Below are positions 19,586-44,110 of a stretch of 64,000 nucleotides of DNA, piece by piece. Position 1 is the stretch's first letter. Each line of letters opens with the position of its first letter. Below the pieces are notes generated by a model. It searched no databases. It had not been told where the DNA came from and saw only the letters and a list, made by a program, of their open reading frames with translations. A program made the position numbers and the translations under genes. Source of the DNA: Aliicoccus persicus (lineage in GTDB: Bacteria > Bacillota > Bacilli > Staphylococcales > Salinicoccaceae); assembly GCF_900110815.1 (NCBI RefSeq), contig NZ_FOIT01000001.1, positions 169,910-233,909 of the forward strand, given 5' to 3'.

Positions 19586-19613
19586 TTGTAATCTAATTCA
19601 ACAAGTGATAACG

Positions 19614-19651
19614 AAAAGACAAGAAATCGTGAGATTTCTTGTCTTTTTTTC
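19614..19651 (+). terminator. Intrinsic terminator after sucD
   Basis: AAAAGACAAGAAATC pairs perfectly with GATTTCTTGTCTTTT around GTGA and runs into a T-tract. It is one of the strongest terminators in the window. Confidence 0.92.
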
Positions 19652-19708
19652 TGTTTTTATAAGAAATTTTGACATGTATTTTTAATTTTTTACGATTACT
19701 TTCTACTA

Positions 19709-19714
19709 TATAAT
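19709..19714 (+). promoter_or_regulatory. Candidate -10 of dprA
   Basis: A consensus TATAAT lies about 20 bases before AGAGGG (19735-19740). The matching -35 is poor (a run of T), so the promoter call is tentative. It points to a transcript whose ribosome binding site is AGAGGG. Confidence 0.4.
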
Positions 19715-19881
19715 AGACCTATCAAACGATAAAAAGAGGGATCAACATCAACCTGCTCAAGCTATCCTTTTTAAAAATTACTGCGAAAGAATACATCACT
19801 TTAAAACATGCGAAAACTTCGAAATCTATTCAGAAAAAACTTCAAACATATGATGCGTTAGATACATCACAGTTAGAATAT

Positions 19882-20529
19882 TTGTTGAGACGTCATGACG
19901 TGAAATATATAACAATCAATGACCTGAATTATCCACCGCTGTTAAAAGAAATTTATGATCCCCCTTATATTTTATATTACAGGGGCAACATCGATTTGTT
20001 AAAAATCCACGCGCTCAGCATCGTTGGTAGTAGAAATTGTACACAGTACACGCGCGCATCATTATCTTCACTTCTCAGTGAACTGAGTAATGTCGTCATC
20101 GTCTCTGGACTCGCTTTTGGTGCGGATGAATATGCACATAAAATTGCCATCGACAATCAGTTGCCAACAATCGGTATCCTCGCTTTTGGTCATTCCATCC
20201 ATTATCCAAAAACAACACAGCATATGAGAGATGTGTTAGACTGTCATTATTTGACGCTGAGTGAGTATCCACCTGAAACTGGTATAGAGAAATGGCGCTT
20301 TGTTGCACGAAACCGAATTATTGCGGGTTTATCTAAAGGGGTGTTGGTGACAGAGGCTGAAGAAAAAAGTGGCAGCTTGGTCACGTTAGAGATGGCGATG
20401 GATGAAAATAGGAGTGCGATGTGCTTGCCTGGTAACATGACTTCAAAGTATTCAAAAGGGACAAATTTACGTATACAAGAGGGTGCAAAAATGGTCCTTT
20501 CGGCTCAAGATATTTTAGAAGAGTTGTAG
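19882..20529 (+). CDS. dprA: DprA/Smf, DNA-processing protein (start uncertain)
   Basis: DprA loads RecA on incoming single-stranded DNA during transformation. The Rossmann-like core is intact: VGSRNCTQYT, VSGLAFGADEYAH, RNRIIAGLS, and EKSGSLVT. Coordinates begin at the first canonical start codon, a TTG with no ribosome binding site. The reading frame continues open upstream to a TAG near 19712, and residues encoded from about 19741 (KITAKEY through LEYLLRRHD) resemble the N-terminal region of S. aureus DprA. AGAGGG at 19735-19740 precedes only ATC, ATC and CTG codons in this frame. The real product is therefore probably about 260 residues with an unusual start, or the start codon has been lost. 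Confidence 0.85.
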   Translation: MLRRHDVKYITINDLNYPPLLKEIYDPPYILYYRGNIDLLKIHALSIVGSRNCTQYTRASLSSLLSELSNVVIVSGLAFGADEYAHKIAIDNQLPTIGILAFGHSIHYPKTTQHMRDVLDCHYLTLSEYPPETGIEKWRFVARNRIIAGLSKGVLVTEAEEKSGSLVTLEMAMDENRSAMCLPGNMTSKYSKGTNLRIQEGAKMVLSAQDILEEL

Positions 20530-42061: not shown

Positions 42062-44110
42062 ATGACTAAAATTAGAATCTACGAATATGCAAAAGAAAAT
42101 GATTTACAAAGTAAACAGGTGATTGATTTTCTAAACGAAATTGGTGTTGAAGCTGGTAGTCATATGAAATCATTAAGTGATGATGAAGTTGAATTACTGG
42201 ATGCAGAATTTAAATTAGAAACAGATGATGTCGATCAGTATGGCGACGACTACGAAGATGCACCTAAGAAACAAAAATCTAAAAAGAACACACAGAAAAA
42301 AGAACGTGCGAAAGCAACCGAACAAAAACCTGTTGAACAGCCGACGACGACTGAAGATGGAGAAAAAATTCTCTATTACACAGCAGATACTACGGTAGGT
42401 GAACTTGCTCAAAAATTAGGTGTTGATGCATCTAAAATCATTAAAGATTTATTCATGGTTGGTGTCGTAACAAATATTAACCAAACGCTGGAAGAAGAAT
42501 CAATTGAACTGATAGCGAGTGAACATGGATTTGTTGCACGTGAAGAGATCATTGTTGATGATATGGACTTAGATTCATTCTTCTTATTTGAAGAGGGAAC
42601 TTTAACAGAACCAAGACCATCAATCGTAACGATCATGGGACACGTTGACCATGGTAAGACAACGTTGCTCGATTCTATCCGTAATACAAAAGTAACAGTG
42701 GGTGAAGCTGGTGGGATTACACAACATATTGGTGCCTATCAAATTGAAAACGATGGTAAGCCGATTACATTTTTAGATACACCAGGACACGCGGCATTTA
42801 CGACGATGCGTGCACGCGGAGCACTTGTCACAGATATTACAGTACTTGTCGTTGCTGCAGATGATGGTGTCATGCCGCAAACAATTGAAGCGATTAACCA
42901 TGCAAAAGCAGCAGAAGTTCCAATCATTGTTGCGGTAAACAAGATGGATAAGCCAACAGCGAATCCGGATCGTGTCATGACAGAGCTTGGTGAACATGGT
43001 CTTTATCCTGAAGATTGGGGTGGAGATACGATATTTGTTCAACTGTCAGCATTGTCTGGTGACGGGATTGATGATTTACTTGAAATGATCGGGCTTGTCA
43101 GTGAGATGGAAGAGTTTAAAACGGACTCTAAGCGTCCCGCAATCGGTACGGTCATTGAGGCTGAACTCGATAAGTCTCGTGGACCTGCAGCATCGCTGAT
43201 CGTCCAACATGGTACTCTGCGTGTTGGTGATTCAATCGTAGTTGGTAATACGTATGGTAAAGTGCGTGCAATGGTCAATGACCTCGGAGAACGTATTAAA
43301 GAGGCACCACCTTCGTTGCCTGTAGAAATTACAGGTCTAAATGATGTACCACTTGCTGGTGACCGATTTGTTGTCTTTACAGACGACAGAAAAGCGCGTT
43401 CAATCGGTGAGGCACGCAGTAAAGAACAAGTGTTGAGGGACCGTGAAAAAACGTCTAAAGTAAGTTTAGAAAACTTATTTGATCACTTAAAGGAAGGCGA
43501 AACGAAAGACTTAAATGTCATCGTGAAAGGTGATGTTCAAGGTACGGTTGAAGCGCTCAGTGCATCGCTCATGAAGATTGATATCGAAGGTGTAAACGTT
43601 CGTATCATCCATACAGGTGTTGGGGCAATTAATGAATCAGATGTTACACTTGCAACAGCATCTTCTGCAATAATTATCGGTTTCAATGTTAGACCAGATG
43701 TCAATGCGAAACGTGCAGCGGATCGCGAAGATATCGATATGCGTTTACACAGCGTTATCTATAAAGTGATTGAAGAGATTGAGCAGGCGATGACTGGACT
43801 TCTTGATCCAGAGTATGAAGAGCAAGTCATCGGTAACGTAGAAGTACGTCAAACATTCAAAGTATCTAAAGTTGGGACAATCGCTGGTTCATACGTCACA
43901 GATGGTAAGATTACGAGAGATTCTGGCGTGCGTGTCATTCGCGATGGTGTTGTCATCTATGAAGGTGAACTCGATCAGTTGAAGCGCTTTAAGGATGATG
44001 CAAAAGAAGTCACAGCAGGATATGAATGTGGTATTACAATTAAAAACTTTAATGACGTAAAAGAAGGCGACATCTTCGAACCGTTCATTATGGTTGAGAT
44101 TGAGAGGTAA
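42062..44110 (+). CDS. infB: Translation initiation factor IF-2
   Basis: A 682-residue IF-2 that delivers initiator tRNA to the 30S subunit. A short IF2_N module starts the protein and is followed by a lysine-rich linker (about 80-110). The G domain begins at GHVDHGKTT (about 194), with DTPGH and NKMDKP following. Domains II-IV run to the end. The linker is short, giving a protein close to the small Gram-positive form. It is in the centre of the nusA operon. Confidence 0.97.

Follow-up and report, generated by a model that had tools for sequence, protein, structure and literature searches.

Near-cognate translation starts are already known from nature, and that of infC is tied to the autoregulation of IF3. 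In Listeria, the ATC start of rnhC and the ATT start of infC have been confirmed experimentally, and reporter strength followed the order ATG > ATA > ATT (PMC13068326). In Bacillus subtilis, an rny-lacZ fusion that began with AUC retained expression, although much below wild type (PMC10303841), and for Escherichia coli initiation at a reduced rate from CTG, ATA, ATT and ATC is reported in work cited in PMC13068326. The present analysis concerns a window of 64,000 nucleotides from the genome of Aliicoccus persicus (family Salinicoccaceae), in which the gene dprA carries ATC at the place where most of its relatives carry a canonical start codon.

The dprA reading frame and its product

The dprA frame is open from a TAG at 19714-19716 to the stop codon at 20527-20529, and contains no ATG, GTG or TTG before the TTG at 19882, as the original prediction had stated. 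With 55 codons between the upstream stop and the first canonical start, dprA is an outlier among the scanned open reading frames of the window; the runners-up have distances of 31 and 21 codons, and the first of them, an open frame of 86 codons, is probably no real gene. The coding sequence is placed as follows.

19747..20529, + strand: coding sequence of dprA (260 codons and a stop codon), assigned by PF02481, TIGR00732, the structural model and the match to 3uqz

The product is DprA by both sequence and fold. It passes the family cut-offs of Pfam (PF02481, 231.5 bits against 29.6) and NCBIfam (TIGR00732, 204.3 bits against 191.15), and a search of the genome for a second dprA copy found none. 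The AlphaFold model built from ATC 19747 (mean pLDDT 94) shows the fold of the whole protein, with the N-terminal helical domain, and aligns with Streptococcus pneumoniae DprA (3uqz) over 258 residues (1-260) with a Z of 34.8, an rmsd of 2.0 and 39% identity. The structures of Helicobacter pylori DprA align only with model residues 49-260, and a product begun at TTG 19882 would therefore be a core-only form; judged from the model, it would lose the N-terminal helical domain. The N-terminal segment had been likened to that of staphylococcal DprA; the closest dprA genes belong to other Salinicoccaceae genera (51-60% identity, versus 42-45% for the staphylococcal ones).

The segment that precedes TTG 19882 is real coding sequence. 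Its mean codon log-odds in frame is +0.108 (19747-19881), versus +0.123 for the rest of dprA, with negative values in the other frames and a value near zero upstream. The identity of this N-terminal segment to relatives is 0.31, versus 0.33 among the other genera.

The start region and its counterparts in relatives

The codons that follow AGAGGG (19735-19740) are ATC, AAC, ATC, AAC and CTG. The elements of the region are given below.

19613..19648, + strand: intrinsic terminator of sucD, the gene upstream, with a stem of 16 pairs and a T run after it
19709..19714, + strand: TATAAT, -10 element of the likely dprA promoter
19735..19743, + strand: Shine-Dalgarno element AGAGGGATC, pairing with the 16S rRNA 3' end at a duplex energy of -11.8 kcal/mol
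19747..19749, + strand: candidate start codon ATC, aligned with the starts of relatives, 6 nt past AGAGGG
19882..19884, + strand: TTG, first canonical in-frame start, probably unused, Shine-Dalgarno energy -1.7 kcal/mol

The genus is represented by this single genome; a search for a further strain gave nothing among viral contigs and only other genera among the genome contigs. Each of the other 32 family genomes has a homologue of dprA; these genes were oriented and aligned, and 31 were readable at the N-terminus. The comparison brought out a conserved canonical start of the kind that the original prediction had proposed looking for. In 28 of the 31 relatives the start codon is aligned with ATC 19747 (20 ATG, six TTG and two GTG), and a Shine-Dalgarno element stands at similar spacing in 28 of the 31. 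The start regions themselves differ little, as seen from aggagggatcgt before ATG in relatives and agagggatcaac before ATC here. Thus dprA has an AUH codon at the position homologous to the canonical start of its orthologues, behind a Shine-Dalgarno element at the normal spacing of 6 nt and with no better canonical start available. The remaining three relatives, all Nosocomiicoccus contigs, have their ATG start two codons further upstream, where ATC 19741 stands here. The Nosocomiicoccus genes (L057, L058 and L059) are without a Shine-Dalgarno element and have their ATG about 6 nt past a TATAAT, which suggests, from sequence, a leaderless dprA mRNA in that genus.

The duplex energies bear out two earlier statements, namely that AGAGGG is a good ribosome binding site and that TTG 19882 lacks one. 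As for transcription, the sucD terminator (one found, versus 0.1 expected in shuffles) lies upstream, and dprA is therefore probably transcribed from its own promoter. Every aligned relative also has a TATAA upstream of dprA, and in the majority it precedes the start codon by 23-39 nt. The consensus -10 noted earlier is thus present, but a good -35 element, sought 16-18 nt from TATAAT 19709-19714, was not found. A promoter-like site returned by the scanner at 19669-19696 was at chance level and was discarded. The Shine-Dalgarno element can pair with a downstream stretch, and the predicted mRNA fold is no stabler than those of shuffled sequences.

The use of a codon other than ATC 19747 appears very improbable. 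The candidates would be ATC 19741, which is the place of the Nosocomiicoccus start, CTG 19753, which also lies downstream of the Shine-Dalgarno element, and the internal TTG 19882, whose core-only product would retain the whole Pfam domain and would match the extent of the H. pylori alignment. However, ATC 19741 abuts AGAGGG and CTG 19753 is 12 nt away from it, versus 6 nt for ATC 19747. TTG 19882 was rejected because it lacks a Shine-Dalgarno element and is the start of no relative, so that the refutation named with the original prediction, relatives beginning at the codon that matches 19882, did not occur; its use would also leave out the segment 19747-19881, which has coding character and is conserved to the degree seen in other genera. 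The earlier proposal of a rare start, ATC or CTG, is accordingly kept as regards the rare start, and its position moves from 19741 to 19747 on the alignment of relatives. An out-of-frame upstream start followed by a frameshift was also considered, and was set aside on inspection by eye, since no ATG, GTG or TTG stands beside the Shine-Dalgarno element in any frame.

The sequence ATCAACATCAAC at 19741-19752 of the window is a perfect 6-bp tandem. Replacing ATG by ATC at 19747 would make the repeat complete, and it is conceivable that this change arose by repeat-templated mutation.

Weak initiation, loss or error

We favour, with moderate confidence, weak initiation at AUC 19747, giving full-length DprA at a reduced level. 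The ancestral start of dprA, most likely ATG, would have changed to ATC in the Aliicoccus lineage, with the Shine-Dalgarno element at 19735-19743 still positioning the ribosome. The initiator tRNA would then start at AUC 19747 through a third-position mismatch, which the good Shine-Dalgarno element would in part offset, and the outcome would be the 260-residue protein in a reduced amount. In reconstituted translation IF3 counter-selects weak third-position pairs (PMC10158994), and a low efficiency is therefore to be expected at AUC 19747. A point against this reading is that the ATC of dprA occurs in one genome only, whereas the ATA of infC is family-wide. An altered initiation machinery was considered and rejected, as nothing recognised as relaxed discrimination was seen in IF3 or in the anticodon arm of the initiator tRNA: IF3 is intact and differs at several family-conserved positions, none of them recognised as a discrimination residue, and the anticodon arm has the exact canonical sequence.

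Decay of the gene had been offered as another explanation of the missing start. Internal stops and frameshifts were looked for in the dprA frame and none was found, and the nucleotide-binding and other invariant residues are kept in the alignment with 19 relatives. The ratio of inter-genus distances (this genome versus among the others) is 0.87 for DprA and 1.12 for the products of the neighbouring genes, SucD and TopA, so that DprA shows none of the accelerated evolution by which a pseudogene was to be recognised. The open frame, the ordinary coding statistics and the lack of any rate acceleration thus speak against long-standing decay, and an old pseudogene was rejected on the rate and coding tests.

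A recent loss, in which the start mutated at the level of the strain or species, practically no DprA is produced and the body of the gene has had too little time to decay, would leave frame and rate intact; the ATC does differ from all relatives, and dprA is dispensable outside transformation. We nevertheless regard it as unlikely. In a gene of the size of dprA, single-base changes that create a stop far outnumber those that destroy the start, and a start-only lesion would therefore be an unlikely way to lose it. The competence genes sampled in this genome (comEC, comGA, comGB and comK) are intact, and the same kind of change is seen in deoB, one of two further genes that drew attention in a scan of 672 open reading frames of contig C8 (about 36% of the genome), read from stretches.

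C8 400916-402121 (L108:916-2121; also in L120), - strand: deoB, phosphopentomutase by resemblance
C8 597954-599207 (L166), - strand: hflX-like GTPase gene, with no canonical start that has a Shine-Dalgarno element

The deoB gene has ATT, behind the Shine-Dalgarno-like AGGAGTGAT, where 29 of 29 readable relatives have ATG. An in-frame TTG, which overlaps the xerD stop, and a GTG lie just upstream of this ATT and could serve instead, so deoB is not a clean second case. In the hflX-like gene an ATT lies past the Shine-Dalgarno element and the ATG beside that element is out of frame; this may be a third start change, but the start of relatives lies about two codons further on, so that a small indel, or a start that has shifted, is equally possible. 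The gene for RNase HIII (rnhC, TIGR00716) was sought in this genome as an ATC control and gave no match.

That ATC 19747 is a base-call or assembly error, the true codon at 19747-19749 being canonical, seems distinctly improbable. ATC is one base from ATG and one assembly of the species was used; that assembly, however, is good (eight contigs, 99.5% complete), and a count of mutational routes in C8 also weighs against frequent error. In the genes of C8, 97,452 single-base changes over 224,226 codons would create a stop, and about 1,446 would turn an ATG start into ATH (three for each of 482 ATG starts with Shine-Dalgarno support). The ratio of the two is about 67, so that two start changes that arose blindly, through error or decay, should be accompanied by about 135 nonsense changes. 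About two nonsense candidates (43594 and 619347), plus the hflX junction, were seen at a detection power of about 42%. The argument is rough: it ignores frameshifts, relies on two start changes, one of them ambiguous, and takes no account of the filtering of real mutations by selection. As a rough indication it argues for start changes tolerated by selection and against frequent errors, and it is compatible with a lone error or a lone recent loss at dprA. The first of the two candidates, near 43594 on the - strand of C8, is a possible in-frame stop that splits a small gene (..DIDYD*VLSVGDESEVDG..).

It is a doubtful, though possible, extension of weak initiation at dprA that the lineage tolerates AUH starts more than the rest of the family, with AUC in dprA, AUU in deoB and perhaps AUU in hflX, whether through down-tuning or through relaxed stringency.

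Comparison with known near-cognate starts

Gene prediction that admits only ATG, GTG and TTG as starts would begin dprA 45 codons late and yield a truncated protein. If AUC 19747 is used, dprA would show a conserved gene exchanging its canonical start for a near-cognate one in nature, and its genome contains at least one further candidate; start-codon swaps as a means of down-tuning would then become directly testable. What is new with respect to the known natural cases is the gene, dprA, in this lineage, together with the presence of another candidate in its genome.

At the protein level, the fold of S. pneumoniae DprA (3uqz) matches that of the model, but the N-terminal 54 residues have no phmmer sequence match. 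Among the genes with near-cognate starts, infC resembles dprA in having an AUH codon behind a strong Shine-Dalgarno element, which in this genome is ATA behind GGAGGTG (L063, about position 1730, - strand) and is so in 30 of the 30 relatives read; unlike the ATC of dprA, found in one genome only, the ATA of infC is thus the same in 31 of 31 genomes read. The rnhC gene of Listeria monocytogenes shares with dprA an ATC at the start of a conserved Bacillota gene (PMC13068326), but there the ATC is fixed across the species and experimentally confirmed, whereas in dprA it is a candidate. The rsbW changes from ATG to ATA or ATT in Listeria (PMC13068326) and the rpoS change from ATG to ATA in E. coli O104:H4 (PMC12864459) differ from the dprA case in being strain-level mutations (under laboratory selection for rsbW) that involve other codons and other genes, and resemble it in the kind of change, as in both of them a single change at the third position of the start codon lowered the protein but did not abolish it.
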